In this document: positions 8,442 to 59,570 of the stretch, piece after piece
Layout: each line of letters opens with the position of its first letter
Numbering within the stretch: the stretch's first letter is position 1
Assembly (NCBI GenBank): GCA_013298125.1
Contig: JAAFJP010000008.1
Coordinates: 1 to 64,000 of the forward strand
Source of the DNA: Cytophagales bacterium
Lineage (GTDB): Bacteria > Bacteroidota > Bacteroidia > Cytophagales > Spirosomataceae
Reading direction: 5' to 3'
DNA: 64,000 nt
Notes under the pieces: model-generated
The model's database searches: none
What the model saw: only the letters and a program-made list of their open reading frames with translations
What the model was told of the DNA's origin: nothing
Translations under genes and position numbers: made by a program

Positions 8442-8487
8442 TATCCCTAATTCCCAACCCTTAATCCCTAATCCCTAATCCCTAATT
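8442..8487. repeat. heptamer tandem repeat (CCCTAAT type)
   Basis: Degenerate then perfect copies of TCCCTAA/CCCTAAT, with four clean units at the right end. The repeat runs directly into the -33 TTTG of the fabG promoter. The same heptamer appears in both arms inside rnpB (28707-28904) and upstream of hslV (58713-58767). Confidence 0.85.
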
Positions 8488-8559: not shown

Positions 8560-9306
8560 ATGGCATTATTACAGAATAAAGTCGTTTTAGTAACGGGTGC
8601 ATCACGTGGAATTGGTCGTGCGATTGCCCTTAAAATGGCTCAACAAGGAGCAAATGTAGCTTTTACCTATCTTTCATCAGTTGAAAAAGGAGAGGCTCTT
8701 GTATCAGAGCTGACGGCTTTTGGTGTAAAAGCTATCGGATATCGTTCAGATGCTTCTGATTATAAACAAGCGGAAGAATTGATGAATTCTGTTGTGGCAG
8801 ATTTTGGCACAATAGATGTATTAATAAACAATGCGGGCATAACCAAAGACGGTTTATTGATGCGTATGTCAGAAGAACAATGGGATACGGTGATTCAAGT
8901 AAATTTGAAATCTGTCTTCAATTTGACCAAAGCCGCAACTAAACCCATGATGAAAGCAAAATCTGGTTCAATCATCAACTTGACCTCTGTTGTGGGTATT
9001 CGTGGAAATGCTGGACAAGCCAATTACGCCGCTTCAAAGGCTGGAATCATCGGTTTTACTAAATCAGTTGCCTTAGAATTAGGTTCAAGAAATATTCGTT
9101 CAAATGCCATTGCTCCAGGTTTTATCTTGACTGAAATGACAGGCGAATTGAATGCTGCTGCAACGGAAGAATGGACAAAATCTATTCCTTTGAAACGTGG
9201 AGGCGAAGCCGAAGAAGTGGCAGATGCTTGTGTTTTCTTAGCCTCAGATATGTCAAAATACATCACTGGACAAGTGCTTCAAGTGGATGGTGGAATGCTG
9301 ACGTAG
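8560..9306 (+). CDS. fabG: 3-oxoacyl-[acyl-carrier-protein] reductase
   Basis: A 248-residue classical short-chain dehydrogenase. The NADP-binding TGASRGIG lies at residues 13-20 and NNAG near 90-93. The active site has Ser in INLTSVVG, then Tyr and Lys in NYAASKAG, in standard spacing. The C-terminal end DGGML is typical of FabG. It reduces 3-oxoacyl-ACP to (R)-3-hydroxyacyl-ACP in fatty-acid elongation. Other SDRs have the same motifs, but length and overall pattern favour FabG. No acp or fabF lies adjacent. The stop codon overlaps the first base of a long inverted repeat that separates it from the VWA gene. Confidence 0.9.
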   Translation: MALLQNKVVLVTGASRGIGRAIALKMAQQGANVAFTYLSSVEKGEALVSELTAFGVKAIGYRSDASDYKQAEELMNSVVADFGTIDVLINNAGITKDGLLMRMSEEQWDTVIQVNLKSVFNLTKAATKPMMKAKSGSIINLTSVVGIRGNAGQANYAASKAGIIGFTKSVALELGSRNIRSNAIAPGFILTEMTGELNAAATEEWTKSIPLKRGGEAEEVADACVFLASDMSKYITGQVLQVDGGMLT

Positions 9307-9423
9307 TCGTAAGTCTCTAAGTCATAAGTCGTAAGTAATTTGAACTTACAATTTGATTACTTACGAACTTTTGACTATAAATTCCTAACTTACTTACGAC
9401 TTAAAGACTTACAGACTTACGAC
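9306..9423. repeat. long inverted repeat between fabG and the VWA gene
   Basis: The arms of about 33 nt (9306-9338 and 9390-9423) are built from GTCGTAAGT / ACTTACGAC units and are complementary apart from two or three positions. The loop of about 50 nt contains further ACTTAC/GTAAGT pieces. No U-tract follows, so it is more like an intergenic palindromic element than a simple terminator, though it may attenuate read-through from fabG. Confidence 0.8.
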
Positions 9424-9432
9424 TCAAAATAC

Positions 9433-17691: not shown

Positions 17692-19875
17692 TTAAGAAAT
17701 ATTCAATGTAAACACCGTTCCAACTCCCAATTTTGATTCAACCGAAATCTCACAATTAATCGCTTTGGCAAGGTCACGGATGAGGTGCAAACCCAAACCC
17801 GTTTTAATGCCAACTACCTCATTATCATCGTATAAGGCTTTGAATTGTTCTTGATTTGCTCCTGGTCCATTGTCGGAAATTGATAGATATTTTTTCCCGT
17901 TTTCTTGCCAAGCCTTCCATTCAATGATTGGATGTTGGGTTTTTGCCAAGGCTTTTATGGCGTTGCCCGTGAGGTTTCGGATGATAGTTTTTAGGTAATC
18001 TTCATCGGTAATTAACGTTAAATTTTCAAGATTATGAAAGTCAATTTTTACTTTTTCTTGACTCTCAAAATGCCTTCTGGTGTCTTCAAATAGGGAATTT
18101 ACGGATATTTTTTTAAGTTGGGGCGTAAAATTTTGCATCTGTCCTTTGCTCCAAAGTAAAATGTCTTCCATCGAAGTCAAGAGGTTTTCGGCACCCGCCA
18201 TTGTCTTGCTTTGCAATCTTTTTTTGGTAGCTTCATCAATCGATTCAGGGCTGTCTTGTTGCATCTGTAAAAACTGAATCAGATTCGCCACGGGACTGCG
18301 TAAATCGTGGTTCAGAATACCCAAAAATCTCACTTTTGCTTGATTGGCTTCGTCTAATTCTGTATTCAAAACTTGTAGTTTTTTGTTGGCTTTTTGACTA
18401 CTGTTTCGTTGGTAGAAAAGCAAACTTCCAATAATCGTGAGCATCAAAAGACCCGCTATCAGATACCATTTTTGTTTTTCCTTAGCGGCTATGTTCAGAT
18501 TGGCAATTTCAATTTCGCTCTTCCTTAATTTTACTTCATTTTCAGCGATTTCTAATTGTTTTTTTCGTGAATCGCTTTCCAATTGTTTTGTTTTTAAATC
18601 GGTTTGGGTTTTCAAAAAATTCAGTTTTGCCAAATCTCTTTCTTTGTTACTTACCGTTAGTTTAGCGTTGTTGAGAGCTAATTGAAACTGTTGTTGTTTC
18701 AGGTTTTGGGCATCTAATAATTGCTGGTTTTTATATTTTTCTTCCTTTGTGTCGAACTCATACTGCACTTCTAATCTTGATATTTGCTTGCGGTTATTTT
18801 CATTATCGATGCTTTCTTTTACGTCATAATATTTTTTGAAATAAACATAAGCACTATCCATTTTACCTTGCTTTTCAAAAATTTCACTCAAATTCTTAAA
18901 CACGCTTTGTTGAACATCTTTCAAGCCAATTTCAGTGGCAAGTTTTAAGGCATTATTAGAAAAAGTTAAGGCTTCATTCAGTTTGTTTTGTTTTAAATAA
19001 TATTCGCCAATACCATAATTATTGTTGGCAAGTCCTTTTTTATTTCCAATTTCTTCATTGATTTTCAAGGCTTTTAAGTAGTTTTCAAAGGCTTCTTGAA
19101 ATTTATTTTGTCTTGCAAATACGCTCGCTAAGTTTCCATATTCGCCTGCCATGCCCGTTTTGTTATTGTTTTCAATGTCTTTGTTCAAGCCTTTACTAAA
19201 ATAATCCGAAGCCTTTTCATAATCTTTCATGTTGAAATAAACATTACCCAAATTCCCCAAACTCGCTGAAATACCCTGACCATAATTAGCCGTTGTGTGC
19301 ATATTCAGAGATTCTTGAAAATACTTAATTGCTAAATCAAACTTTTTTTGTTCGCTGTAAATGACACCCATATTGGTATAAGCCAAAGCTGCTTTTTGGG
19401 GCATTTTTGACTTTTCAGCAACTCTTACAGAATTTTGATAATAAGTTAATGCCTCTGGATATTTACCTTGCACAAGGGCAACTGTACCTAAGTTTGCATA
19501 GTTCTGAATGGAGGCGGGGTGAAATTTTATTTCTTCGCTAATTTTCAAAGATTTCAAAAAATACACCTCCGCATTTTTATAATCACTCGTGAATAAATAC
19601 TTTGCCCCCATACCCTTATAACCATCGGCAAGCCCTTTTTTGAAATTCAATTTTTCGGATAAAGCAATTACTTCTTCTGCCGCCGTTTGCATATTTTTTG
19701 GACTAAACCCGTAGTTTGCTAATAGATATTTCAAAAGTAAATAGACTCTGGTGGTATCTTGTTTGGGATAGTTTTGGAGTTGAATTGTCAAATCATCAAC
19801 TGTTTTGTTGGTTTGCGAAAATGAAGGATATGATAGGGAAAAAAACAGAATCAAGGTCAGTGATTTAGTCTTCAT
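17692..19875 (-). CDS. TPR-containing sensor histidine kinase
   Basis: A 727-residue kinase with a signal peptide, then about eight tetratricopeptide repeats (residues 60-350; GNLGNVYF, GEYGNLASVF, NNNYGIGEYYL) on the periplasmic side. A long coiled coil, one transmembrane helix (WYLIAGLLMLTIIGSLLFY) and a cytoplasmic kinase follow. The H-box ILNHDLRSPVANL places the phosphoacceptor His near residue 520. The N-box IIRNLTGNAIKAL, the G1 box ISDNGPGA and the G2 box GLGLHLIRDLA are all intact. Its ATG overlaps the stop of the LytTR response regulator by 4 nt, so the two are translationally coupled and probably function as a pair. Confidence 0.9.
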   Translation of the reverse strand: MKTKSLTLILFFSLSYPSFSQTNKTVDDLTIQLQNYPKQDTTRVYLLLKYLLANYGFSPKNMQTAAEEVIALSEKLNFKKGLADGYKGMGAKYLFTSDYKNAEVYFLKSLKISEEIKFHPASIQNYANLGTVALVQGKYPEALTYYQNSVRVAEKSKMPQKAALAYTNMGVIYSEQKKFDLAIKYFQESLNMHTTANYGQGISASLGNLGNVYFNMKDYEKASDYFSKGLNKDIENNNKTGMAGEYGNLASVFARQNKFQEAFENYLKALKINEEIGNKKGLANNNYGIGEYYLKQNKLNEALTFSNNALKLATEIGLKDVQQSVFKNLSEIFEKQGKMDSAYVYFKKYYDVKESIDNENNRKQISRLEVQYEFDTKEEKYKNQQLLDAQNLKQQQFQLALNNAKLTVSNKERDLAKLNFLKTQTDLKTKQLESDSRKKQLEIAENEVKLRKSEIEIANLNIAAKEKQKWYLIAGLLMLTIIGSLLFYQRNSSQKANKKLQVLNTELDEANQAKVRFLGILNHDLRSPVANLIQFLQMQQDSPESIDEATKKRLQSKTMAGAENLLTSMEDILLWSKGQMQNFTPQLKKISVNSLFEDTRRHFESQEKVKIDFHNLENLTLITDEDYLKTIIRNLTGNAIKALAKTQHPIIEWKAWQENGKKYLSISDNGPGANQEQFKALYDDNEVVGIKTGLGLHLIRDLAKAINCEISVESKLGVGTVFTLNIS

Positions 19876-20576
19876 TGTAATAAAATTAGATTGTCTCTAA
19901 AACTTCTTCCGATGGGTAAAATAGAGTCATTTTGTAGCATTATATCGTTTGAGAGGATTCTTGATACATAATGTTTCTGAATAGCGTAGCTCCTATGTAT
20001 GCGAATGAAGGCACTAAAATTACTTTCCTTAATCAACAAACCCAGACTTGACAACACGCAATAATTTTTGTTTTCTGTTACGATTTTGGTATAATCTTTC
20101 AAGGCTTCGAGGTATAAAATATCGTGCAATTTTATTTTTACTTGTTCAGTACCCTCTTTGATATAGATGATGTCGCCCCCAATATTTGCTTCAAAAAGAC
20201 TTGCTTTTTCTTTCAATTCCATGTAATCCTCAATGCGAGTGACGGTTTGCTTGAAACGTTCATATTTGAGTGGTTTCACAATAAAATCGAGCGTATCCAA
20301 TTCAAAACTCTCCACGGCAAATTCTGGATGAGACGTAATGAAAATGCAGATTGGAACGGATTTGGCTATTTTTCTGAATTCGATTCCACTCATTTCGGGC
20401 ATATCAATATCCAAAAACATCACATCAATTTGTTCTTCTTGTAGCACTGAAATTGCCTCCGTTGCATCTTCAAAAACGCCCACAATCTTAAAAATAGGAT
20501 GCTTTTTTACGAAAGAAGTGACAGTGAGTCTGTCTATTTCATCATCGTCAATGATTATACAATTGATGTGTTTCAT
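19872..20576 (-). CDS. LytTR-family response regulator
   Basis: A 234-residue regulator. The receiver domain (1-120) has acidic residues D10-D12, the phosphoacceptor D56 in FLDIDMP, the switch residue T/S near FITSH and the conserved Lys in VKPLK. A LytTR DNA-binding domain (about 135-234) contains HDILYLEALKDYTKI and IRIHRSYAIQ. LytTR regulators bind short direct repeats, often to control envelope or surface genes. It is the first gene of the operon with the kinase, and divergent from a LytTR-only protein 150 nt away. Nearby targets could include the tail-fibre genes, which is inference. Confidence 0.92.
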   Translation of the reverse strand: MKHINCIIIDDDEIDRLTVTSFVKKHPIFKIVGVFEDATEAISVLQEEQIDVMFLDIDMPEMSGIEFRKIAKSVPICIFITSHPEFAVESFELDTLDFIVKPLKYERFKQTVTRIEDYMELKEKASLFEANIGGDIIYIKEGTEQVKIKLHDILYLEALKDYTKIVTENKNYCVLSSLGLLIKESNFSAFIRIHRSYAIQKHYVSRILSNDIMLQNDSILPIGRSFRDNLILLQ

Positions 20577-20726
20577 ACCGCTTACTAAGTAATAGTCTTC
20601 GCTCGTCTATTTTTTGGGTTGTTAGTCGATTAATGATTTTTTGTCAGTTAAAGTAGCGGCAAATTTGGGTATTATTTGATATTTCATAAAAATATCGAAA
20701 AGAAGTCAATTAAACAAATACCTCTT

Positions 20727-21077
20727 ATGAAAAATAATGCTATGATGCCCGCCAGCCATTTTGTTATGGTTAATCGCAAACAAAAAATTCGGATTCCTGT
20801 CCAAAATATCATCATGTTGGAAGGGTTCAATAATTACACCCTTTTTCATCTCCAAAGTGGTAAACAGCGATTGTACGCTCGCCCAATTCGCCATTTTGAA
20901 GCCCAACTTCTTCAAGAAAATTTTATCCGTATTCATCGGGGCTATTTGGTCAATTCTTCCTGCATTGTGGGTTACGATAAATTAGAAAATAAGTTGCAGA
21001 TGGAAAACAATCTACAAGCCATGATTTCGAGGAGAAGGCGGAAGAATTTGTCAGATTTTTATGCTATTGCAAACTAA
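20727..21077 (+). CDS. LytTR DNA-binding domain protein without receiver
   Basis: About 116 residues from the ATG at 20727; a longer TTG start is unlikely. The whole protein is a LytTR domain, with IPVQNIIMLEGFNNYTLFHLQSG and then FIRIHRGYLVN, the typical core. It lacks a receiver and a membrane segment. Such stand-alone LytTR proteins occur in Bacteroidetes, sometimes acting as regulators of adjacent genes. It lies between the divergent two-component operon and the tail-fibre-like genes, so it is a candidate regulator of the latter. Confidence 0.85.
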   Translation: MKNNAMMPASHFVMVNRKQKIRIPVQNIIMLEGFNNYTLFHLQSGKQRLYARPIRHFEAQLLQENFIRIHRGYLVNSSCIVGYDKLENKLQMENNLQAMISRRRRKNLSDFYAIAN

Positions 21078-21096
21078 CGTTTAAAAAACAATAATT

Positions 21097-21182
21097 TGTC
21101 GGAACACGATTTTAAGATTCGTAGGATTAACAGGATTGTTCTTAAAAATCTCATAAATCCTAAAATCGTGTTCCGACAAAAT
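21097..21182. repeat. long hairpin repeat (GATT/GGATT type)
   Basis: Two 25-nt arms (21097-21121 and 21158-21182) begin with TTTGTCGGAACACGATTTTA and its complement and differ at one position. They enclose a loop containing GTAGGATTAACAGGATTG. This is the same inner vocabulary as at 1411-1550. It follows the LytTR gene by 19 nt and may also serve as its terminator. Confidence 0.8.
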
Positions 21183-21228
21183 AAAGTTTTCCGAACACTA
21201 AATATAAAATCTTATCCCAAACAAAAAA

Positions 21229-22773
21229 ATGAAAAATCTATCCTTAATTATCTTAGTATTATTCTGTATATCAAACACTTACGCTCAAATAGGCATTAAA
21301 GCTGATAACACCGCCCCTATACCTTCAGCACAATTGGAAGTGCAAAGTACAACCAAGGCATTTTATCCTCCACGCATGACTACGGCACAGCGAACAACCT
21401 TAACCAACAACATTCTAAACCCTCCGCAAGAAGGAGCAATGGTTTTTGATACTGATTTGAATGGGTTGTTTACTTATAATGGGGCTTCTTGGGTTTCAGG
21501 GAGTGGGCTTACTTTGCCTTACTCGGTGAGTCAGAGTGAGGTAGGAAGTTTATTAAGAATTGTCAATACAAATACCAATACTAATTCTGCTACAATTAGA
21601 GGCGAAACGAATTCATTAGGTTCTGGGTATGGCATCTATGGTATCGCAGCTAATTTAACTCCAAGTGGTGCTTCATTTGGAGTATCTGGATTAAACGTTT
21701 CAACAAATTCAAACGGTGTCGGTGTTTATGGACAACACAATGGAACAGGAACAGGTGTTCAGGGTCAATCATTATTAGGATATGGTGTAGTCGGAATTGC
21801 AGGTAGTGGAACCGCTGGTTATTTTAGTGCCAATAACTATGCCCTAATTACAGGTAATGGAAACGTTGGTTTTGGTACCAATACACCTACTAATGCGAAG
21901 CTTCATATCTTAGGATCAAGTTTTTGTTGTGGGACACCCTCAACCGCCGAATTAAGATTAGACCAAACTTCAGCCAGTGATTTCGCTCGTCTCAAATTTA
22001 CTAACGCTAATTCTACCTCTAATGCTTTTTTTTGGGACATTGCAGGTCTTTCAGCAACGTCAGGAAATGAAGCAAATGCCTTCTTGAACTTTTATTATCA
22101 GAACGGAGTAAATACTGGAAAAAATATTATGTCAATGCTTGGTAATGGCAATGTCGGTATTGGTACAAATACACCCAATGCACCACTACAATTCAGCAAT
22201 GCCGCCGTAAATCGTAAAGTAGTGCTGTACGAAACTGCCAACAACAATCATCAATTTTATGGATTAGGTATTAATGGTTTTACCTTTCGCTACCAAGTGG
22301 ATGATGTCTCTTCTTCTCATGTTTTTTATGCTGCTACTGGTACGACTACTTCCAATGAATTAATGCGAGTTAGAGGGGATGGTAATGTGGGTATTGGAAA
22401 CGTCAACCCTTCGGAAAAATTAGATGTTAGTGGGAATATTAAAGCCAACGGAGAAATTAATCGCACGCAAACAACCGATGCCAATTTAGTACCGATTGCT
22501 TATGGTAATGTACTTAGTAATGGATCACTCAATTCTACATCTACCACTGCTAATGTTTTGGTTTCAAAAGTTTCAACGGGCGTGTATCAAATATCTATTA
22601 CGGGTGAAACATATAACGCCAATGATTATACCACCCAAGTTACACTTAATGGTTCTTCAACTTTTGGTTTTATTGTCACATCATCTGGTGCAGGTATCTT
22701 AAATGTTTATACTGCGAATGTATCAGGCACTGCCACAGACAGAGCTTTTACGTTTGTGGTTTACAAAAAATAA
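21229..22773 (+). CDS. secreted tail-fibre-like protein
   Basis: A 514-residue protein with a signal peptide (cleaved after NTYA near residue 20). The start of the mature protein (AQLEVQSTTKAFYPPRMTTAQR, then PQEGAMVFDTDLNGLFTYNG) is the module commonly found at the beginning of Bacteroidetes tail-fibre-like or adhesin proteins. Repeated GNGNVGFGTNTP/GNGNVGIGTNTP steps follow, interspersed with glycine-rich strands. The C-terminus (FGFIVTSSGAGILNVYTA) looks like a small beta-sandwich. No T9SS C-terminal domain is visible. Probably a surface-exposed oligomer. It is the first of four such genes on the same strand. Confidence 0.75.
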   Translation: MKNLSLIILVLFCISNTYAQIGIKADNTAPIPSAQLEVQSTTKAFYPPRMTTAQRTTLTNNILNPPQEGAMVFDTDLNGLFTYNGASWVSGSGLTLPYSVSQSEVGSLLRIVNTNTNTNSATIRGETNSLGSGYGIYGIAANLTPSGASFGVSGLNVSTNSNGVGVYGQHNGTGTGVQGQSLLGYGVVGIAGSGTAGYFSANNYALITGNGNVGFGTNTPTNAKLHILGSSFCCGTPSTAELRLDQTSASDFARLKFTNANSTSNAFFWDIAGLSATSGNEANAFLNFYYQNGVNTGKNIMSMLGNGNVGIGTNTPNAPLQFSNAAVNRKVVLYETANNNHQFYGLGINGFTFRYQVDDVSSSHVFYAATGTTTSNELMRVRGDGNVGIGNVNPSEKLDVSGNIKANGEINRTQTTDANLVPIAYGNVLSNGSLNSTSTTANVLVSKVSTGVYQISITGETYNANDYTTQVTLNGSSTFGFIVTSSGAGILNVYTANVSGTATDRAFTFVVYKK

Positions 22774-22805
22774 ACGGAATTATAAACTTTAAGTCGCAAA
22801 TTTTC

Positions 22806-22902
22806 ATTAGACCACTGATAACACGGATTAGACTGATTTTCACGGATTAAATGATAAAAAATCATCGTAAATCCGTTAAATCTGTATCATCCGTGGTCTA
22901 AA
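22806..22902. repeat. long hairpin repeat (GGATT type)
   Basis: The arms begin TTAGACCAC and end GTGGTCTAA, with further pairing through ACGGATT/AATCCGT motifs. Most of the 97 nt can fold into one stem. It lies between two tail-fibre-like genes. Confidence 0.75.
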
Positions 22903-23006
22903 TTCCAAGTTTGACTATCAATAATTCATTTGCGACACAAAGTATATAATTCAGAAAATAAAAAACAATCACCTGATTGTTTTCAGAACTATAATTTTAA
23001 AAAATC

Positions 23007-24251
23007 ATGAAAAAGGCTTATCTCTTTATTACAATTTCAGTGCTTTCATTTTCGGTGAAAGCACAAACAACCTTTAATTATTCGGGGAATGCGGCAAAGA
23101 TTTTAACGGGACAAATAACAAAAATTGGGCTTATTGGTCAAAACATCATAACCACCAATTCATCCAACTATCATTTGGGCGTACTGGGAACTTCCCAAAA
23201 TGCTGTTTTGGCAAATATTGGTGTTTTTGGCACTACTGAACAAAGTATTGTTTCTAATTCGGTGAGTGCAGTAGCGGTTTGGGGCGATAATCTCACTAAT
23301 AATATAGTTGCAAACAATAGCACCGTAACAGGTGGACTCTTTACTTCAAAAAATGTAGGTTCAAACGGATTTAGTTATGGAGTAAATGCTATTGCCAGCA
23401 GCAATAACAACACAAATACTACTTTTGGAGTCTTGGCATTAGCCGATAATACCTTAAATACAAGCCCCGAAGAAACTATTGCAGTAAAAGGAATTACCAC
23501 CTCTGGGCAATCAACGGTAGCCAATATTTATAAAGGGGTAGCTAATCCAGGGGGGTATTTTAGTAGCAACGACGGACAGGGAATTTACGCCACAACTTCT
23601 GGAACATACAAGTCAGGAAGTATCGTAATATCACAGGCGGTAACGGGTTATAGTAAAACTACAAATGCTTATAACAATGTGGGAGTGGTTGGGTACAGCG
23701 AGGGTACTGGAACTTTTAAAACGGGGGTTTATGGAGTGGTTGAGGGTACGGCAGCGTCATTACTTTCGAGCGGAATAACGGGAGAAGATAAGATTAATGT
23801 TGCGAATAGTTATGCGGGGTATTTTTTTGGTAAAGTCAATATAACCAGCAGTTTATCGGTCAGTTCAGCGGGGAGTTTCACGGGTTGTGTAACTGCCTCA
23901 AACCTAACTTGCCCTTCTGATTCGAGATTCAAGAAAAACATTACTCCAATAGAAAAACCTTTGTCTAACATATTGAAAATCAAAGGAGTAAGATATGATT
24001 GGAAAACAAATGAATTCCCAGAAAAGAATTTCTCCGAAAAAAATCAAATTGGTTTCATTGCCCAAGACCTCGAAAAAATCTTTCCAGAAATGGTTTTTAC
24101 CGATGAAAAAGGTTTTAAATCGGTGGATTATGCAAGGCTTACTCCCGTGCTGGTGGAGGCAATCAAAGAACTGACCTTAAAGAATCAAAAATTAGAAAAT
24201 CGTTTGGAAAAAGTTGAGGAAATTCTCTCAGTGAGTGCCTCGAAGAAATGA
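23007..24251 (+). CDS. secreted tail-fibre-like protein with S74 chaperone domain
   Basis: A 414-residue protein with a signal peptide (cleaved near VKAQ, residue 20). A Gly/Asn/Thr-rich repeat body (GVLGTSQN, GVFGTTEQ, GVVGYSEGTG) leads to a C-terminal peptidase S74 / intramolecular chaperone domain (about residues 305-405). SDSRFKKNITPIEKPL contains the Ser and Lys of the autocleavage dyad, followed by IGFIAQDLEKIFPEMV and VDYARLTPVLVEAIKEL. A coiled-coil tail (LENRLEKVEEIL) ends the protein. In phage tail fibres this domain trimerises the shaft and then cuts itself off. Homotrimeric surface fibre assembly is inferred here. Confidence 0.85.
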   Translation: MKKAYLFITISVLSFSVKAQTTFNYSGNAAKILTGQITKIGLIGQNIITTNSSNYHLGVLGTSQNAVLANIGVFGTTEQSIVSNSVSAVAVWGDNLTNNIVANNSTVTGGLFTSKNVGSNGFSYGVNAIASSNNNTNTTFGVLALADNTLNTSPEETIAVKGITTSGQSTVANIYKGVANPGGYFSSNDGQGIYATTSGTYKSGSIVISQAVTGYSKTTNAYNNVGVVGYSEGTGTFKTGVYGVVEGTAASLLSSGITGEDKINVANSYAGYFFGKVNITSSLSVSSAGSFTGCVTASNLTCPSDSRFKKNITPIEKPLSNILKIKGVRYDWKTNEFPEKNFSEKNQIGFIAQDLEKIFPEMVFTDEKGFKSVDYARLTPVLVEAIKELTLKNQKLENRLEKVEEILSVSASKK

Positions 24252-24303
24252 CATTTTATCAATTATAACCTTAGTTTTTAACAATTAACTTACCAAAAAA
24301 ATC

Positions 24304-26508
24304 ATGAAAAAGTCAATATTTTTAATGCTAATTTTCCAAATCTTAACATTTAATTTTGCCATAAACGCTCAACAAAATGTTGGTTATACTACTTCTAATA
24401 ATTCAAACGGTTTTTATAATTCAACGTTAGGCGTTTTTGCGGGAAATTCACTTACGGGTACATCCTCAACTTATAATTCCAATAATGCTTATTTGGGGTA
24501 TGCTGCTGGGGGATTTGCATCCAGTACAACGGTTGGGCAAAATGTAGGTAATGTCGCCGTAGGGGCAAACACAGGGTATAATATGACTACTGGTTCGTAT
24601 AATTCTTTTCTTGGAAGTAACGCTGGATATTATAACAAAGCAGCTGCCTTCAACGTTTTTATGGGTTATGCTTCTGGTTATGGGAACACATCTGTTTATA
24701 CTACTGGTGGTAATAATACAGGGTTAGGTTCTTACAGTATGCAAAATTTAACAACGGGAAACAATAATGTAGGCTTAGGATATAATGCTATGGGAGCAAC
24801 TGTACTCTCTGGTACTTTTAATATTGCATTGGGGGCAAGTGCAGGAGCAAATCTTTCATCGGGAGACAACAATATTCTGATTGGGAAATCGGCTGGTTTC
24901 TCCGTAACGGCTGCCTCACTAACTGGTGATGCTAATATTGCCATTGGACAAGAAGCAGGTTTTAAACTAAATACTGCATCATTCAATACTCTCATAGGCT
25001 ATCAAAGTGGCTATAATTTAACGACCAGCAACGATAATCTTTTCATCGGGTATCAGTCAGGTTTGAATCAAACCACTTTGGTTGGTTCTGGCAATTCGTT
25101 CGTGGGTAATTTTTCAGGTTTTTCCAATACCACAGGAGCTAATAATACTTACCTTGGTAGTGCTGCGGGAAAGGGTAACGTAGCAACGAGTCATAATACG
25201 TGTATTGGTACAAATGCAGGGGATGCAGTTTTTACCACTGGAAGTAATAGTGGAAATAACACCTTTGTTGGTTCAACATCTGGCACAAATACCACAGCGG
25301 GTTATAACACCTTTGTTGGCTCTGCGTCAGGAAATTCAAATACCAGTGGCACTTTCAATGTAATGATTGGGAGCAACGCAGGGTATTATTGTTCAACTTC
25401 CAGTAGGAATGTAATCATTGGCGATAGAGCTGGATTTGGATTAAGTTCATTCAGTTCACAAAGCGACAATACTTTGATTGGATTTTCTTGTGGAAATAAT
25501 ACCTACGGAGGAGATAACATCATGTTGGGAGGGTACTGTGGGCAGAATAATACTTCTGGATTTTCAAATGTTTATGTTGGAAAATTTGCTGGGAATAACA
25601 TTGTGTCTGGGTATGATAACTTGTTTTTAGGTAACAATACGTATGCACAAGGAACAAACAAAGCAACCCTTAATAATGTAACCGTTATTGGAAATAATGC
25701 CATTGGTTTAAGAAATAGCACGATGATTTTGGGTGATACTACTAAAAACATCCAAGTAGGTATTGGCACATCTTGGCCCACCCAAAGACTCACCGTCAAA
25801 GGAAACTTTTCCTTCGTAGCCTACAACGACGGAATGTTCTACCAAAACAAAAGATTCCTCTTCCAAGACGAACAAGAAAACATCGCCCTCGGCACAAATC
25901 ATGACGAAGATTTTATGGGTAGAGGAAATTTATTGTTAGGAGCAAACACAAAACTTAATAACTTAACAACTCAACAACTTATTAACGCTACCGCCATCGG
26001 AAACGGTGCAACTGTCTCAGTATCAGATGGTTTGGTTTTAGGTAATCAAGATATTCATGTGGGCATAGGCACATCTACACCTACCGCTCGCTTGGAAATA
26101 GCCTCTGGGAAAGATGGTGAAAGTGGCGTTGTTTTTAGTAATCTCAAACAAAATTATTCTAATAAATTCCTCACCGTCAATCAGTTAGGGCAAGTTATTT
26201 TAGAGAAACCTCGCACTCAAATAAATTCAGTTGAGGAATGGTCAGATAAAGTTTTTGAAAGTAATTATCAACTCAAATCTTTGAGCGAAGTGGAACAATT
26301 TGTGAAGGTAAATAAGCACCTTCCTAACATTCCATCCGCCCATGAAATGATTGAGAAGGGGATTGAAAACGAAAAACTATCGGCAAAATTATTGGAGAAA
26401 ATTGAGGAATTGACCTTGTATTTGATTGAGATGAAGAAAGAGAATCAAGAAATTAAGAAGGAAAATGCTGACATGAAATCAAGAGTTTTGCTATTAGAAA
26501 AGAAGTAA
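24304..26508 (+). CDS. secreted YadA-head-like repeat protein with coiled-coil C-terminus
   Basis: A 734-residue protein with a signal peptide (to about residue 23, INA-QQ). Some 30 degenerate repeats of the type N..(I/L)G..AGxN.TTG.NN follow (residues 30-480). They resemble the left-handed beta-roll repeats of trimeric autotransporter heads. A shaft module with IQVGIGTSWPTQRLTVKGN and a C-terminal region follow: EEWSDKVFESNYQLKSL, HLPNIPSAHEM and a heptad coiled coil (LLEKIEELTLYLIEMKKE). The coiled coil would trimerise the fibre. No outer-membrane anchor was found. It is a paralogue of the next gene, with very similar C-terminal DNA. Confidence 0.75.
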   Translation: MKKSIFLMLIFQILTFNFAINAQQNVGYTTSNNSNGFYNSTLGVFAGNSLTGTSSTYNSNNAYLGYAAGGFASSTTVGQNVGNVAVGANTGYNMTTGSYNSFLGSNAGYYNKAAAFNVFMGYASGYGNTSVYTTGGNNTGLGSYSMQNLTTGNNNVGLGYNAMGATVLSGTFNIALGASAGANLSSGDNNILIGKSAGFSVTAASLTGDANIAIGQEAGFKLNTASFNTLIGYQSGYNLTTSNDNLFIGYQSGLNQTTLVGSGNSFVGNFSGFSNTTGANNTYLGSAAGKGNVATSHNTCIGTNAGDAVFTTGSNSGNNTFVGSTSGTNTTAGYNTFVGSASGNSNTSGTFNVMIGSNAGYYCSTSSRNVIIGDRAGFGLSSFSSQSDNTLIGFSCGNNTYGGDNIMLGGYCGQNNTSGFSNVYVGKFAGNNIVSGYDNLFLGNNTYAQGTNKATLNNVTVIGNNAIGLRNSTMILGDTTKNIQVGIGTSWPTQRLTVKGNFSFVAYNDGMFYQNKRFLFQDEQENIALGTNHDEDFMGRGNLLLGANTKLNNLTTQQLINATAIGNGATVSVSDGLVLGNQDIHVGIGTSTPTARLEIASGKDGESGVVFSNLKQNYSNKFLTVNQLGQVILEKPRTQINSVEEWSDKVFESNYQLKSLSEVEQFVKVNKHLPNIPSAHEMIEKGIENEKLSAKLLEKIEELTLYLIEMKKENQEIKKENADMKSRVLLLEKK

Positions 26509-26559
26509 TGATGGACTTCATAAGAAATTAAAATTACTCATTTACAATCACAAAATACC

Positions 26560-28362
26560 ATGAAAAATACTATTACTTGCTCTTTAATTTTAGTACTCAC
26601 AATGCTTTTCACATCACTGAAAGCACAACAAAATGTTGGTTTTACCACAAACAACAATGCCAATGGTTTTTATAATTCACTATTGGGTTTTGGAGCTGGC
26701 AACGGAATTGTTGGAACAAATTCTCTCAGAAATTCAGGCAATAGTTATTTAGGCTATTTGGCTGGATATAGTTCAGCGGCAACTGCCAACAACGAAAATG
26801 TTAATAATGTAGTCGTTGGAAGTATGGCTGGTTATTCCCTATCAACGGGGTCAAATAATACGTTTATGGGCGTTGAGGCAGGATATTATAACAAAACAGC
26901 CAAGTTTAACGTCTATGTGGGTTTGAATGCCGGGCAAGGAGACAACACAGTTTATACGGCGGGAGGATATAATACGGGCGTGGGTACGTTCAGTTTGAAT
27001 GAAGTAACGTCGGGTACATATAATACGGGCTTGGGTGTATTAGCTTTGGGCGGAACAACCTTGACGGGAAACTTTAATACGGCAGTAGGTCCGTTTGCGG
27101 GTCATTATCTCTCAACATCTTCTGACAATATCTTGGTTGGAAATTCAGCGGGATATTCAACATCAGCAAACAAACTAACTGGAAACGGAAATATTGCCAT
27201 CGGTTCAAAATCGGGCTATAAATTAGGTGCTGCCGAATATAATACGTTGCTTGGGTTTGAGAGTGGCTATAATCTTTCAACGAGTAGTAATAATATTTTC
27301 ATAGGCTATCAGTCAGGGTATAATCAAACCAATGCAATTCGTGCTTTTAATTCATTTGTAGGGTATCAATCAGGTTTCCTAAATACTTCGGGTATTAATA
27401 ACACGATGTTAGGTTCTAACTCAGGTTATACCAACACAACAGGATATTCTAATGTTTTTGTTGGTAATAATGCGGGATATAACATTGAATCTGGGTATAA
27501 AAATGTTTTTCTGGGGGATTCTGCCCGTTCGGAAGGTAGAGGTCGAGGAAGTATAAATTATGCAACCGCCATTGGTTATAATGCAGTTGCCATCAGGAGC
27601 AATACCATGATTTTGGGTGATACAACCCAAAATATCCAAGTTGGAATCGGTACGGCTTCACCCACCCAAAAACTCACTATCAAAGGTAATTTCTCTTTCG
27701 TAGCCTACAACGACGGAATGTTCTATAAAAACAAACGTTTCCTCTTTCAAGACGAACAAGAAAATATTGCTTTGGGAACAAATCATGACGAAGATTTTGC
27801 GGGCAAAGGAAATTTGTTAATTGGTGTGGACTCTAAAATCAACAATTCAAAAATCAACAATTCAACCGCTATCGGCTATGGTGCAACTGTCTCAGTATCA
27901 AACGGTTTGGTGTTGGGAAATCAAGATATTCACGTGGGCATTGGTACTTCTGCACCCACCGCTCGCTTGGAAATAGCCTCTGGGAAAGATGGTGAAAGTG
28001 GCGTTGTTTTCAGTAATCTTAAACAAAATTCTGCTAATAAATTTCTCACCGTCAATCAGTTAGGTCAAGTTGTTTTAGAGAAGCCCCGTACACAAATTAA
28101 ATCAATTGAAGACTGGTCAGACAAAGTTTTTGAGCGTAATTATCAACTCAAATCTTTGAATGAAGTTGAACAATTTATTAACGCAAATAAGCATCTACCA
28201 AACATTCCATCCGCCCAAGAAATGACGGAGAAGGGAATTGAAAATGAAAAATTATCGGCAAAATTATTGGAGAAAATTGAGGAATTAACTTTGTATTTGA
28301 TTGAAATGAAGAAGGAAAATAAAGAATTGAAATCAAGGGTTTTGATTTTAGAAAACAAATAA
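26560..28362 (+). CDS. secreted YadA-head-like repeat protein, second copy
   Basis: A 600-residue paralogue of 24304-26508 with the same layout: signal peptide ending LKAQ, a beta-roll head with N..(I/L)G..AG repeats (residues 25-350), an IQVGIGTASPTQKLTIKGN module and a coiled-coil end. The head has fewer repeats and is more divergent, while the DNA from about 27640 to the stop is nearly identical to the other gene. That pattern suggests recent duplication or gene conversion of the C-terminal part. It ends 5 nt before a strong bidirectional terminator shared with rnpB. Confidence 0.75.
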   Translation: MKNTITCSLILVLTMLFTSLKAQQNVGFTTNNNANGFYNSLLGFGAGNGIVGTNSLRNSGNSYLGYLAGYSSAATANNENVNNVVVGSMAGYSLSTGSNNTFMGVEAGYYNKTAKFNVYVGLNAGQGDNTVYTAGGYNTGVGTFSLNEVTSGTYNTGLGVLALGGTTLTGNFNTAVGPFAGHYLSTSSDNILVGNSAGYSTSANKLTGNGNIAIGSKSGYKLGAAEYNTLLGFESGYNLSTSSNNIFIGYQSGYNQTNAIRAFNSFVGYQSGFLNTSGINNTMLGSNSGYTNTTGYSNVFVGNNAGYNIESGYKNVFLGDSARSEGRGRGSINYATAIGYNAVAIRSNTMILGDTTQNIQVGIGTASPTQKLTIKGNFSFVAYNDGMFYKNKRFLFQDEQENIALGTNHDEDFAGKGNLLIGVDSKINNSKINNSTAIGYGATVSVSNGLVLGNQDIHVGIGTSAPTARLEIASGKDGESGVVFSNLKQNSANKFLTVNQLGQVVLEKPRTQIKSIEDWSDKVFERNYQLKSLNEVEQFINANKHLPNIPSAQEMTEKGIENEKLSAKLLEKIEELTLYLIEMKKENKELKSRVLILENK

Positions 28363-28367
28363 AATAC

Positions 28368-28407
28368 ACCAAAACGGCTCTGAGGATTTCCTCAGAGCCG
28401 TTTTGGT
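28368..28407. terminator. bidirectional terminator between tail-fibre gene and rnpB
   Basis: A perfect 19-bp stem (ACCAAAACGGCTCTGAGGA and its complement) has a 2-nt loop and A-rich/T-rich flanks on both sides. It ends the convergent tail-fibre gene and rnpB. Confidence 0.9.
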
Positions 28408-28526
28408 AAAAACAAATCTATAAGCCGCATTCTGTCAGTACCGAAGCACCGTCTTATCATTTATCTCGACGCACCGTCACCGATACGCTCTATCAACCTA
28501 CCCACTGACATCAGGCGAGCAGCCCT

Positions 28527-28605
28527 TTTTTAGTTAAGAATTATTAATTAATAGTTAACAGTCTTCACTTTTAATTCTTAATTTTTCATTATTAACTATG
28601 CTGTC
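28527..28605. repeat. AT-rich hairpin insertion inside rnpB (P16/P17 position)
   Basis: Nearly all A/T, with TTAAGAATTA / TAATTCTTAA and TTAATAA-type complementary pieces that can form a hairpin. It occupies the variable region next to the pseudoknot strand, just before GGCTGCTCGCC of the RNA (minus strand). Confidence 0.75.
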
Positions 28606-28706
28606 AGCCTATTTGGTCTTTCAACTCATGAGGTTTACCGATGCCCTCGATGTCACCACCGAGGCGGTAGGCTCTTACTCTACCTTTTCACCCTTACTTG
28701 ATTAAG

Positions 28707-28904
28707 TTTTAGGGATTAGGGATTAGGGATTAGGGATTAGTGATTAGTGATTAGATACTGAGAGTTTGAGAATTAGGAGTTAAAAATTTAGTAATAGAAA
28801 AATCTTTACTTATGTTTTAATTCCCAATTCTCCAATTCTCCAATTCCCAATTCCCAATTCCCTAATCCCCAATTCCCTAATCCCTAATTCCCCAATCCCC
28901 AAAA
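28707..28904. repeat. inverted heptamer repeat inside rnpB (P9 position)
   Basis: The left arm (28707-28750) carries four perfect TAGGGAT units followed by TGATTAG. The right arm (28819-28900) carries many CCCTAAT/CCCAATT-type units. The two arms are complementary, so the segment can extend P9 as a long hairpin. This is the same heptamer as at 8442-8487 and 58713-58767. Confidence 0.85.
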
Positions 28905-29044
28905 AGCGGTAATTTTCTGTGGCACTTGCTGTTACGGATTCGTCACCAAAGCCGTACCTTCCCGTTAGGAAGCATGATGCTCTACGTTGTGCGGACTTTC
29001 CTCCCTCGCATACACGAAGGCGATAAGACGACTTGTTTTCGTTA

Positions 29045-29052
29045 CAAAGTTA
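29045..29052 (-). promoter_or_regulatory. rnpB -7 element
   Basis: TAACTTTG on the minus strand is a perfect TAnnTTTG match. It ends 5 nt before the predicted 5' end of the RNA at 29040. Confidence 0.7.
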
Positions 29053-29124
29053 TCATTTTAAATCGAAGGACTAAGATTTTTTTGTAATTTACAAGGTGTT
29101 TATTATTTTCAAATAGTCCAAACT

Positions 29125-30237
29125 ATGTTCAAATATCTACTGGTCTTATTTTCTATTATAGCCCTTTGTTTCTCGAATGGACATGCCCAATCTACATTGT
29201 ATTTAATTGAAGGAGATGTTATAGAAACTAAAAATGCAGAATCTGTCCCCTCAGCAAATGTTTTTTTAGAAGGTACAACACTTGGTACACAGTCTGATTC
29301 CCAAGGGCATTTTGTTATCAAAAATATTCCAGCGGGAAACTATCAATTGGCGGCTTCGATGGTGGGTTTTCAAACCTATTCTCAGAAAATTTTAGTTTCA
29401 AACAAAAATCTTATTCTCAAAATCTCATTGGTTGAAGATGTGAAATCATTAGAGGAGGTGAAAGTTGTAGGTGAAAGAGACAAAAATTGGGAGAAACAAT
29501 ACAAAGTTTTTGAGAGAGAGTTTCTTGGTAATAATTTTGATAAAAAAGAAGTAAAAATTCTCAATAAAGAAGTACTTGATTTTCAGTATAAACAAGGAGT
29601 TTTTAAGGCATCAGCCATCAAGCCAATCGTTATTGAAAACAAGACTCTGGGCTACAAAATCACTTATATATTGAAAGGTTTTGAAAAAAATAAGTATCAT
29701 TCTTCATACAAAGGTATTCCACGGTATGAAAAACTAATTCCAGCAAACAGTGAGCAAGAAAAATTGTGGGATAATAACCGCCAGAATGCTTACAAAGGCT
29801 CAATTACCCATTTTTTGAAAGCCTTACTTGATGATAAATTAGTCTCAGAAGGATTCGATGCTCATTTTGTGAATCCTCATTATGTTAAAAATACCCCATT
29901 TAAACTCATGTTTTATGAACTATCAGACCGCACTTTACCACTTCACCCCAAAGAGATTATACAGAAAATTAATGAAGAACCATTGGTGTACAGGCTTACA
30001 TGGAAGTATCCATTAGAAGTGGTCTATAACAAACAACAAGAACGTTCCCCTATTTTTTCAGATGCACCACACCCATACTCTTTTTTAAAGCCACTCAATA
30101 CTATTTTTATTACCCATGATGGTAATCTTTTAGACCCTTATTCAGTAGAAATTAGAGGTAAAATGGGAGAGTTTGGTTATGCCGACTTACTGCCTTTGGA
30201 TTATATACTGCCTAATGAAAATATTGAGTTAAGATAA
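29125..30237 (+). CDS. secreted carboxypeptidase-regulatory-like domain protein
   Basis: A 370-residue protein with a signal peptide (FKYLLVLFSIIALCF, cleaved near HAQ). A CarboxypepD_reg-like beta-sandwich follows (about residues 26-115): GDVIETKNAESVPSANVFL, then GTQSDSQGHFVIKNIPAGNYQLAASMVGF. The remaining 250 residues have no TonB-dependent barrel or recognised family but contain many aromatic and basic residues. Similar proteins are common in Bacteroidetes, and their function is unknown. It is monocistronic and divergent from rnpB. Confidence 0.78.
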   Translation: MFKYLLVLFSIIALCFSNGHAQSTLYLIEGDVIETKNAESVPSANVFLEGTTLGTQSDSQGHFVIKNIPAGNYQLAASMVGFQTYSQKILVSNKNLILKISLVEDVKSLEEVKVVGERDKNWEKQYKVFEREFLGNNFDKKEVKILNKEVLDFQYKQGVFKASAIKPIVIENKTLGYKITYILKGFEKNKYHSSYKGIPRYEKLIPANSEQEKLWDNNRQNAYKGSITHFLKALLDDKLVSEGFDAHFVNPHYVKNTPFKLMFYELSDRTLPLHPKEIIQKINEEPLVYRLTWKYPLEVVYNKQQERSPIFSDAPHPYSFLKPLNTIFITHDGNLLDPYSVEIRGKMGEFGYADLLPLDYILPNENIELR

Positions 30238-30299
30238 GAGTATGAATTAAAAGATAAATTTTTTTTCAAAAAATCAAATGTCAAGTCGTCAAAATTCAC

Positions 30300-31139: not shown

Positions 31140-31667
31140 ATGACAAAAGATACTTGTTTTGAATTAGGTAAAATAACCAAAACTCATGGCATTAGAGGAG
31201 AAGTAATCCTTTGGCTTGATGTAGATTTTCCAGGAGATTATGAAGATTTGGAAAGTGTTTTCTTGGAAGTTAGGGGAGAATTAGTCCCTTATTTTATGGA
31301 TTCATATCGCCTGTCTGGCAATCGTGCTATTGTACAATTTGAAGATATTGATACCTTCGAGAAAGCCGAAGCCTTAATAAATCTTCAAGCCTTTTTGCCT
31401 TTAGAAGAATTACCAGAGTTAGAAGATAATCAGTTTTATTATCACGAAATAATTGGTTATCAAGTAGTTGATAAGAACTTAGGAGAATTAGGTATTGTAC
31501 ACACAGTACACTCTATGCAAGCACAAGACCTTTTGGTGATGGATTATAAAGGTAAAGAAGTATTGATTCCAGTCATTTCTGAAATTGTATTAAATGCAGA
31601 TAAGGGAGCTAAGGTGTTGAATGTGAATTTGCCAGAAGGACTTTTGGAGGTTTATATGGAGGATTAG
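31140..31667 (+). CDS. rimM: ribosome maturation factor RimM
   Basis: 175 residues with the diagnostic GKITKTHGIRGEV at the N-terminus (RimM beta-barrel) and a C-terminal PRC-barrel: QFYYHEIIGYQVVD, then LLVMDYKGKEVLIPV and LPEGLLEVY. RimM binds S19 in the 30S head and helps processing of 16S rRNA. It is followed after 14 nt by trmD, the classical order. It appears to be transcribed separately from rpsP, because a terminator and an inverted repeat lie between them. Confidence 0.96.
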   Translation: MTKDTCFELGKITKTHGIRGEVILWLDVDFPGDYEDLESVFLEVRGELVPYFMDSYRLSGNRAIVQFEDIDTFEKAEALINLQAFLPLEELPELEDNQFYYHEIIGYQVVDKNLGELGIVHTVHSMQAQDLLVMDYKGKEVLIPVISEIVLNADKGAKVLNVNLPEGLLEVYMED

Positions 31668-35811: not shown

Positions 35812-35840
35812 GTTCTGGTACGAATATTGTTTATCCTTAA

Positions 35841-35867
35841 ATGGTGGTATCTTTTCGATGCCACCAT
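35841..35867 (+). repeat. hairpin between giant genes A and B
   Basis: ATGGTGGTATC (35841-35851) pairs with GATGCCACCAT (35857-35867) across a TTTTC loop. No T run follows, so it is a possible processing or attenuation hairpin rather than a full terminator. It ends where the duplicated leader of gene B begins. Confidence 0.55.
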
Positions 35868-35938
35868 ACATTTTAATCCAAATTTCTTTCCAACCGCCAT
35901 GAAGAAAGATTTCCAATTCAAGGCTCTATTTTTTAGAG
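35867..35938 (+). repeat. duplicated 5' leader plus signal-peptide block, copy 2
   Basis: Copy of 32870-32941 with a constant offset of 2997 nt. It is identical through the first 13 codons and then diverges gradually within the signal peptide. Confidence 0.85.
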
Positions 35939-38900
35939 CATTCGCAGTAATCTGCCTCTTTTTAATTTCCCAATCTGTGTTTGCACAGGTTTCTGGGACA
36001 GTTTTCCGTGATTATAATAGTAATGGAGCAAAAGACGACCAACATGAGTTGGGCGTTAAAGGCATTTCTGTGTCTGCCACTGATGCAGGAGGAACTATTT
36101 ATGGACCTGTTATTACAGCCGATGATGGTACTTATACCATTTCGGGCGTTCCTACTGGAAAAGAGGTTAGAATAGAGTTTTCAATTCCTGCAACGGTGGG
36201 GTGTTATAATGAAAAGGTTTTTGAATCATTTGGTAATTCTTCAAATTCCACATCGGTTCAATTTGTAAAAGGAGGAGCAACTAATGTTAGTTATGGTGTA
36301 AACAACCCCATTGATTATGCTAAGAACAGCCCAGATATTGCTACAACTTGTTTTATAAACGGTGATAGAACGTTGCCGAAAACGGCTATTCAATTTGGTA
36401 TTCAAGTTGGTGTTTCTGATATGGATGTTGCTTTGAAATTTAATTATTCCAAAGCAATTGCTATTCCGAGTGGAGCGGGTTCAAGAAATAATGGTGCTGC
36501 CCCAGTTACTCCCAATAATACTTATTATTCAATTGCCGAGAAAATGGGTTCAGTTTGGGGGCTTGCATATCAGAAAGACTCTAAAAAACTATTTATGTCT
36601 GCTATAATGAGACGGCATAGTCAGTTTGGACCACTTGGGACAGGAGGAATCTACGTAGTTAATAATGCAGATGGAAATACTTTCAATGTTACGGATAATA
36701 GAAATTTTATTGATGTTCAAACCATTGGTATAATTACAGGAACTGACCCACACCCTTTACCAGCAACATCAACAAATAATACTGCTTTTGACCTTGCTGT
36801 TTGTGATGCAGTTTCATTTGATAAAGTAGGTAAAATAGGAATTGGAGATATAGATTTATCCGACGATGGAATTTTCTTATATATGACAAACTTGAATGAT
36901 AGAAAACTTTACAGAATAAAACTAAATAATCCTGCGACAACTCCAACATCAGCCGATGTGTTACCTTATGATACAGCTCCTTGGCTTGCATCGGGTACTT
37001 GTCAGAACGGAGTTGCCAGACCTTGGGCTACAAAATATTATCGTGATAAAGTATATGTTGGTGTTGTTTGTACAGGAGAAAATGGAGGAACAGTAGCCGA
37101 CTTAAAAGCTATGGTTTATGAGTTAGATGCCAAAACAGATGTCTGGAAAAACACACCAACATTTACACAGGCTTTAAACTATACAAAGGGTAAAGCTGCC
37201 AGTGCTGCAACTGTTTCAATCGTTTCAAACCAAGGAATTACGTGGAATCCTTGGACTAATATTTTTCCTGATCCAGGCGATACAAAGACAACATTTACAG
37301 CAATTTATCCATCTCCAATACTTTCAGACATTGAGTTTGATACTGATGGTTCAATAATTTTAGGATTAATGGATAGATTTGGACACCAAGCTGGTTCAGG
37401 AACAAAAATTCCTAAAAGTGATGGTTCATGTATTGCAGACCCTGCCAGAGGTTTTGGTCCTTATACATCTGTTTCGTCGGGTGGAGATTTGCTCAGAATA
37501 GGTATGACAGCAGGGTGTGTATATGAGTCTGAGAATAACGGCAAAGCGGTTAATAGGACTTCATTAGGCGTTGGTAATGGACAGGGAATAGGTGGAGGAG
37601 AATTTTACAGTGGTGATAATATTGCTGGTGTTGAAAATAATCACGAAGAAACATTTGTGGGAGGTTTAGCACTTTTACCAGGTTCTAATCAAGTACTTGG
37701 TGCTACTTATGACCCCATGGGATTTGTTTCAGGGGGAATAAACTTTTTTGACAATACAACTGGAAAAGCACCTAATAGATATGAGGTTTATCCACCCGCT
37801 AATGCACCATTTCCTGGGAAAGGTAATGGTGTAGGAGATATTGAATTACTTTTAACAAATGCCCCCATCCAAATTGGAAACCGTGTTTGGTATGATAAGG
37901 ACAAAGACGGCATTCAAGATGCAGAAGAGAAACCACTGCCAAATATCAAAGTAGCTTTATACAATTCAAGCGGTGTAAAAGTTTCGGAAGTAACCACTAA
38001 CGCCTTGGGCGAGTATTATTTTGATACTTTGAATATTGCTGGGGGTAAATTATTACCATTGAGTCGTTACGAAATCAGAGTCGCCAAAACTACTATTAAT
38101 GATTCTCTAAGTTTAACAGAATCAAACACAGGTACAAATGATGCTATCGATTCAGATGCTGAGACAGTAGGAGCAGACTATGTTATTCCAGTTTTGACAG
38201 GTAATTACGGAGAAAACAATCATACTTACGACATTGGTTTTGCTCCTGAATTACCAGATTTGAAAGTTACGAAAACGGTTGATAAATCAATTGTCAAAAA
38301 AGGGCAAAACGCCAAATACACCGTAACAATCAAAAATCAAGGAAAAGGAAAGGCTACTAAGGTAAAATTAGAGGATTTGATTCCCGCAGGAACCACGCTT
38401 GTGAGTGCAACGCCAAGTAGCACAACGAGTACGGATAAAGGAACATTCTCGGCAGGTATTTGGTCATTAGATTCATTAGTCGCCAAAGATAGCGTTGTGT
38501 TAGTGATTGAAGTTACAGCCACAACCGAGGGTGTTAAGAGTAATGTTGCACAGATAAAATCTATGAACGAAAAGGATGTAGATTCAACGCCAGGTAATTC
38601 TGATTATAAAGAAGATGATATTGCAACGGCTTGTTTTACAGTTCCTTACGAATATTGTAAAGCTGATAAGCCATCATTCACTATCACAGCCCCAGATTCT
38701 TTGACAACCGTAAAATGGTTTAAAAATGGAACAGAATTAACCGCAGAAGCAGGTAAGAAATTTATCACCGTTTCGGATTCTGGAAGTTATTATTACGAAG
38801 GAATTACCCCAAACACACTTTGTAAAGCGGGTAGTTGTTGTCCAGTAATTTTAGACCCTTACAAGATTGCAAAAGCAGGAAAAGATACTACTATTTGTTC

Positions 38901-58712: not shown

Positions 58713-58767
58713 CAATCCCGAATCCCTATTCCCCGAATCCCTATTTCCCTAATTCCCAATCCCCAAA
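58713..58767. repeat. heptamer repeat (ATTCCC / CCCTAAT type)
   Basis: Degenerate tandem units related to AATCCCTA and AATTCCC lie upstream of the hslV promoter. Same family as 8442-8487 and the rnpB insertion. Confidence 0.75.
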
Positions 58768-58793
58768 TTTATCCAAATGTACCATTTAGCTAA

Positions 58794-59426: not shown

Positions 59427-59570
59427 TAAGTTACGGAATTATAAAGAATTTGGCAAATTGCCCTTCCAATATCCATAGCGAGGGGTTTAAACCCCTCGCT
59501 ATGGATATTGGAAGGCTTTTATTGTTGAAATTAGTCTTTGTGCCAAATAGTTTATAGTTCCGTTAAGTTA
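59427..59570. repeat. nested inverted repeat (palindrome inside a hairpin element)
   Basis: The outer imperfect arms are TTACGGAATTATAAA / TTTATAGTTCCGTTAA and TTTGGCAAA / TTTGTGCCAAA. Between them lies a perfect 54-nt palindrome (59462-59515) with no loop. The arrangement suggests one repeat element inserted into the loop of another. Confidence 0.75.
59462..59515. repeat. 54-nt perfect palindrome
   Basis: The left half is CCTTCCAATATCCATAGCG followed by AGGGGTTT; the right half is its exact reverse complement. The centre GGGGTTTAAACCCC is an extrudable cruciform or strong RNA hairpin. It lies between hslV and the peroxiredoxin gene. Confidence 0.95.

Follow-up and report, generated by a model that had tools for sequence, protein, structure and literature searches.

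Identification of rnpB in the window

The window, that is the whole stretch of 64,000 nucleotides that was analysed, belongs to the genome of a Cytophagales bacterium (G000) and carries an RNase P RNA gene (rnpB) on its minus strand. The RF00010 covariance model matched this gene with 220.1 bits against a cut-off of 100 and spanned all of model positions 1-367, which places the RNA in class A. The assembly (5.85 Mb, 72 contigs, 95.5% complete) contained this single match, and no second intact rnpB was found in it. An earlier sequence-only reading had described an RNase P RNA of about 633 nt at 28408-29040 with all its conserved blocks; the blocks stand, and the gene is complete and spans 28405-29039. 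The gene and its flanking elements are as follows.

28405..29039, minus strand: rnpB, RNase P RNA class A, 635 nt (RF00010 covariance match, the only one in the genome)
28367..28408, minus strand: terminator-like hairpin of 19 pairs after rnpB, found also after rnpB of the congener G004 (L252 sequence)
29045..29052, minus strand: TAACTTTG, promoter-like, directly upstream of rnpB and likewise upstream of rnpB in G004 (by eye)

The conserved core blocks GGAGGAAAGUCCG, ACAGAAA, GUAAGGGUGAAA and ACAGAAUGCGGCUUA were all present in the covariance alignment, as was the P4 pairing, which read by eye is UCCGCA/UGCGG in G000 and UCCGGA/UCCGG in G002 (alignment with the G001 row left out). The fold predicted for the whole RNA, without pseudoknots, had a z-score of -8.8 relative to 20 shuffles. 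The -7 promoter motif of Bacteroidota is TAnnTTTG, and we take the TAACTTTG upstream of rnpB to match it. The rnpB of G000 looks like a live gene.

The surroundings of the gene differ between congeners. By blastn, genes matching the window at 9.1-17.7 kb directly adjoin rnpB in G003 and G004, and the other side is shorter there too. About 10.7 kb of the window (~17700-28360, including a Peptidase_S74 protein at 23007-24251) looks inserted or moved in G000, and so does the CarbopepD_reg gene at 29125-30237, within the stretch 29053-30278; among the 22 rnpB loci searched, this gene was present only in its own. Among named matches, the best ones for the protein encoded at 31140-31667, presumably RimM-like, and for its relatives belong to Spirosoma and other Bacteroidota. 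Very long ORFs lie at 35827-47958 (4043 aa) and 49511-57088 (2525 aa); in the former, a tandem repeat occupies 44570-46409 and has a period of 372 bp.

Two enlarged segments in the G000 RNA

The covariance alignment located enlarged segments in the P12 hairpin and at the P16/P17 junction, both outside the conserved blocks.

28696..28913, minus strand: P12 region, 218 nt, hairpin with arms of heptamers and octamers (covariance alignment, segment lengths, fold z -10.7)
28818..28903, minus strand: 5' arm of the P12 hairpin, G-rich in the RNA, GGGAATT/AGGGATT-type units of 7-8 nt (TRF)
28709..28754, minus strand: 3' arm of the P12 hairpin, 6.6 copies at 97% of a heptamer that reads TTAGGGA on the plus strand (TRF)
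28525..28607, minus strand: 83-nt segment at the P16/P17 junction, enclosing an AT-rich hairpin at 28531-28598 (covariance alignment, hairpin scan)

In the hairpin scan the P12 hairpin ran from 28712 to 28891, one arm measuring 83 nt and the other 86 nt. Taken by itself, the P12 insert is predicted to form one long hairpin of -96.1 kcal/mol (z -10.7, none of 200 shuffles as good), its arms joined by 72 Watson-Crick and 6 G-U pairs. The inverted CCCTAAT/TAGGGAT units of the sequence-only reading are there (TRF 28709-28754 and 28818-28902). That reading had placed them at P9; alignment to the model confirmed the class A core over 367 positions and ruled P9 out as the site, the insert lying after ACAGAAAauu-ACCGC and before GUAAGGGUGAAA, in P12. 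The AT-rich hairpin that it had noted near P16/P17 does lie between P16 and P17, where some class A RNAs have a helix P16.1, and folds weakly alone (z -2.3 or -1.6, depending on the ends chosen).

Inserts in congeners and relatives

Eight genomes of the genus were compared. From G000 to G007, the P12 lengths were 218, 18, 89, 18, 96, 24, 18 and 24 nt and the P16/P17 junction lengths 83, 37, 129, 83, 95, 13, 93 and 13 nt. P12 is therefore enlarged in 3/8 and the junction in 5/8 (G001 being intermediate), and P19 in one, G004, where it measures 187 nt. The G004 gene, with inserts at all three sites, reaches ~690 nt by blast landmarks, and the class A model matched just its positions 12-321.

A sample of the family gave an rnpB match in 139 of 145 genomes. 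Among the 136 complete matches, from which the partial one of G004 is excluded, the median span was 406 nt, with spans of at least 440 nt in 36 and of at least 480 nt in 19; the G000 gene was the longest, at 635 nt. Segments were surveyed in 58 loci, eight of which could not be segmented (L129, L134, L136, L137, L138 and L145 of these were read separately); the loci were mostly picked for length, so that the share with inserts is not a rate for the family. In the loci read, insert sites were confined to P12, the P16/P17 junction or P19. This confinement, and the presence of large inserts in many separate assemblies, including genomes of one or two contigs (e.g. G134, G291 and G333), argue against an artefact of assembly or binning, an explanation that draft genomes and the error-proneness of repeats might suggest and that we find scarcely credible.

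Named species were approached through 80 loci beside a conserved neighbour gene, in 17 of which rnpB was segmented. P12 measured at least 60 nt in 7 of these 17: Flavobacterium sp. SUN052, a metagenome genome of Spirosoma and five named Spirosoma (110 nt in S. panaciterrae, 124 in S. terrae, 118 in S. utsteinense, 99 in S. telluris and 124 in S. oryzae). S. lacussanchae has a P12 segment of just 13 nt. The insert of the Flavobacterium (L182), outside Spirosoma and the genus of G000, is an 86-nt P12 palindrome of CAGTGA/CAGTTA-type units and their complement. The rnpB of this strain adjoins a relative of the gene at 31140-31667 of the window.

The P12 hairpins of other species are built from other units, such as AATGAGTG octamers in G247 and ACAGTTT heptamers in G009; the P12 segment of G364 measures 97 nt. 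Comparison with sister species, as the sequence-only reading had proposed, thus showed inserts that vary around a core that stays, and a phenomenon broader than first supposed, with three sites, several heptamers and octamers and many species. At ~283-378 of the G256 locus (L138), non-octamer sequence was seen by eye within the tip of a AATGAGTG P12 hairpin, as if hairpin tips were being reused as places of insertion.

A tree of 53 rnpB cores (65 loci tried, 12 unsegmented and left out; 246 columns), with good support for 17/49 inner branches, served to count changes of state. With P12 scored as at least 80 nt versus at most 35 nt, which assigned 43 of the 53 rows, the P12 state required at least 14 changes on this tree and the junction state at least three; as length had partly guided the choice of loci, these numbers do not express a rate. 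G417 and G457, with enlarged P12 segments that make poor hairpins, were scored as inserts on this tree.

Folded singly, 11 of 13 inserts had a z-score of -3.66 or below, the weak two being the junction inserts of G000 (-1.6) and G006 (-2.6). The P12 insert of G247 forms a nearly perfect predicted duplex (z -16.05). Long duplexes of this kind are typical RNase III substrates, and fragmented 23S rRNAs offer a parallel for RNAs that work in pieces. The G247 duplex and the long predicted P12 hairpin of G000, with its 72 Watson-Crick pairs, would suit an intervening-sequence reading, in which RNase III cuts the long arms and the mature RNA functions as two or three fragments. Many inserts, on the other hand, are broken up by mismatches and bulges, and the STRR repeats of cyanobacterial RNase P RNA reportedly lengthen P12. 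We regard such cutting, which is compatible with the explanation that we prefer below, as possible but rather unlikely.

Divergence and pairing of the inserts

Over 5.6 kb around rnpB, G003 and G006 share 92% identity. Their rnpB cores agree at 354/357 positions, and of the 78 bases aligned between their junction inserts (88 columns) 49 match, so that in this one sister pair the divergence of the insert far outpaces that of the sequence around it. Read by eye, the most divergent stretch of the 5.6 kb is an extragenic TAACTGA-type palindrome (L248, ~181-310).

Lengths of tmRNA were uniform: 397-400 nt in 7/8 congeners (no match over the cut-off in G006) and 365-403 nt in all of the 28 relatives, out of 29, that gave a match over the cut-off. 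We therefore rejected, for tmRNA, the idea that such inserts are a general trait of structured RNA genes.

If pairing matters in the RNA, G-U should exceed A-C among the mispairs of the arms. On the RNA strand of the rnpB inserts we counted 47 G-U versus 24 A-C (pooled P 0.009), and a permutation that flipped strands per insert gave P 0.019 one-sided and 0.039 two-sided; by a sign test per insert, 12 were for the excess and 6 against, with 5 ties (P 0.24). The count covers 23 of 30 inserts, leaving aside those with no clear hairpin (L125 P12, L125 P17, L128 P17 and L144 P12) and the copies or near-copies L135, L148 and L030. Twenty extragenic palindromes gave 31 G-U versus 24 A-C. The excess lends modest support to the pairing being used in the RNA.

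The slight G-U excess and the hairpin form of many inserts would also be expected of adaptive extended helices kept by selection, for instance as protein-binding sites or folding aids. The sequence of the inserts, and even their presence, differs between close species, G005 and G007 lack them, and palindromes of the same build occur outside genes; we hold this reading to be very unlikely.

Dispersed repeats and palindromes in G000

A scan of 432,591 bases of G000 found 124 hairpins of score at least 45, versus 3, 4 and 5 when the sequence was dinucleotide-shuffled three times. Most (111/124) lay mostly outside ORFs of at least 100 aa, yet these ORFs take up 87% of the sample. The arms were periodic (self-match of at least 0.55 at a lag of 6-9 nt) in 22 hairpins, the lag being 7 nt in 10 of them, 8 nt in 11 and 9 nt in one. 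All 22 lay mostly outside these ORFs, and two of them are the rnpB inserts. Further repeats were located in the window.

8443..8486, no strand assigned: one-sided array of the P12 heptamer (ATCCCTA), extragenic (TRF)
58714..58768, no strand assigned: array of AATCCCG/CCCTATTC units, extragenic (TRF)
9305..9424, no strand assigned: palindrome with arms of an ACTTACG-type heptamer, built like the rnpB inserts (hairpin scan and TRF; it failed the periodicity cut)

The two arrays, which agree with the two intergenic occurrences of the heptamer in the sequence-only reading, are taken as one-sided because they are absent from the 13 window hairpins of score at least 45.

The TTAGGGA pattern had 75 matches in G000, at ~40 loci. 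Its 19-base form matched 45 times in G000, 10, 9 and 1 times in G002, G004 and G005 and twice in G210, and was absent from the other seven of the 12 genomes compared; the backwards-pattern control is uninformative for this pattern, since the reversed heptamer is the same repeat. For two other patterns the same control gave 0 matches in all 12 genomes. The AATGAGTG pattern occurred in 10/12 genomes, G000 included, and its units are widespread also where a genome's own rnpB has none. The TAACTGA-type pattern, which resembles the junction inserts of congeners, occurred in 8/12 genomes and had no match in G000; no source of the G000 junction insert was traced, a point against the explanation preferred below. 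Likewise, no TAACTGA tandem pair was found in the 432.6-kb sample of G000, the word is absent from its rnpB, and a related three-unit pattern had no match in the whole genome.

Palindromes of fixed sequence were seen as well. One with arms of 25-27 bp and a TTAA loop is near-identical at 59462-59515 of the window and at 15547-15604 of L106. Two families are possibly REP-like: CCTCACCCCCAGCCCCTCTCC... in L103, L104, L106, L108, L109, L110, L111, L119 and L121, and TACTGTAGCTCGAAGT... in L103, L105, L109 and L114. The genome has five matches to Y1_Tnp proteins, and a Y1-type enzyme could take part in the movement of palindromes.

The arms of short tandem units, the many differing unit sequences and the fast divergence in place are what one would expect had an ordinary rnpB hairpin grown by slippage and template switching, with no element arriving. 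Such in-place expansion, if it involved no exchange, leaves unexplained that the P12 heptamer lies at ~40 loci of G000 while the other genomes compared have fewer copies or none, and we judge it unlikely.

Discussion

We consider it likely that a working, single rnpB has been entered repeatedly at outer sites by dispersed palindromes, which were tolerated and then changed fast. The pool would consist of those extragenic palindromes scattered in G000 that have arms of arrayed 7-8-nt units, and its members may have entered rnpB time and again at its periphery, namely at P12, the P16/P17 junction and P19. Among the loci compared, no pair of filled and empty sites with clean junctions was caught, which counts against arrival from such a pool. 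Once in place, a hairpin would be tolerated because it lengthens or adds an outer helix alone and spares the core fold; the RNA would still be transcribed and function with its inserts, which would be close to neutral. The insert would then change fast by slippage of its short units and probably by copying from arm to arm.

That an essential structured RNA absorbed a repeat family and kept its core, as the sequence-only reading had put it, is supported by sequence evidence, because the gene is single-copy, its blocks are intact, the terminator and promoter-like motif are common to G000 and G004, and congeners carry short and long forms.

In a bolder version, RNase III would nick or remove the P12 and P16/P17 hairpins and the enzyme would work in pieces that the core keeps together; palindromes with units of 7-8 nt would then be general fast-changing hairpins, which the loops of rnpB have received again and again in two phyla. 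This we think unlikely, though conceivable.

The cited part of PMC7191817 gives RNase P RNAs a length of 250-550 nt and those of class A an average of 374 nt. The enlarged rnpB genes exceed this usual range, and the class A model can then match partly, as in G004. The short and long forms within one genus are natural pairs for asking which outer helices vary freely and whether a fragmented form works. The inserts also point to a class of palindromes that changes faster than nearby DNA, as seen in the one sister pair compared.

Comparison with known systems

Three known systems come close. STRR repeats have been reported in the RNase P RNA of heterocystous cyanobacteria (Vioque 1997, NAR 25:3471, as cited in PMC2858038), and a passage of the latter paper describes P12 as sometimes dispensable in cyanobacteria. 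As reported for that system, short tandem repeats lengthen P12 in the G000 rnpB, their occurrence among genomes is scattered and the core is kept. In contrast to it, the host is no heterocystous cyanobacterium, the protein at 31140-31667 matching best, among named genomes, those of Spirosoma and other Bacteroidota; two extra sites are used, the P16/P17 junction and P19; and the units are heptamers and octamers of several kinds. The arms of the Bacteroidota inserts are moreover inverted, so that the insert itself is a palindrome, a possible further difference from the cyanobacterial repeats.

TAACTGA heptamer repeats have been described in Beggiatoaceae, Cyanobacteria and some Bacteroidetes (MacGregor 2015, PMC4679880); the cited sections present them as mainly direct repeats, which in the main genome examined there tend to sit immediately before start codons, and neither RNase P nor rnpB occurs in the main text of that paper. 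The likeness to our repeats is in heptamers mostly outside genes and in the word TAACTGA, which the junction inserts of G002, G004 and G409 contain. The G000 rnpB differs in having no TAACTGA and in arms that are inverted rather than mainly direct repeats.

REP/REPIN palindromes are mobilised by RAYT (Y1) transposases, according to the cited passages of PMC3116915 and PMC3733652. Many short extragenic palindromes and encoded Y1_Tnp proteins are found in G000 too; instead of one fixed palindrome, this genome has palindromes whose arms repeat 7-8-mers in tandem, in many different sequences.

In the open-licence PMC literature, among the matches listed, we found no report of rnpB inserts in Bacteroidota. 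Relative to the precedents, what is new is the other phylum, the inverted arms, the three sites and the recurrence. The Bacteroidota would be a second phylum in which the outer helices of an essential ribozyme admit repeated invasion, or growth, by hairpins built from repeats.
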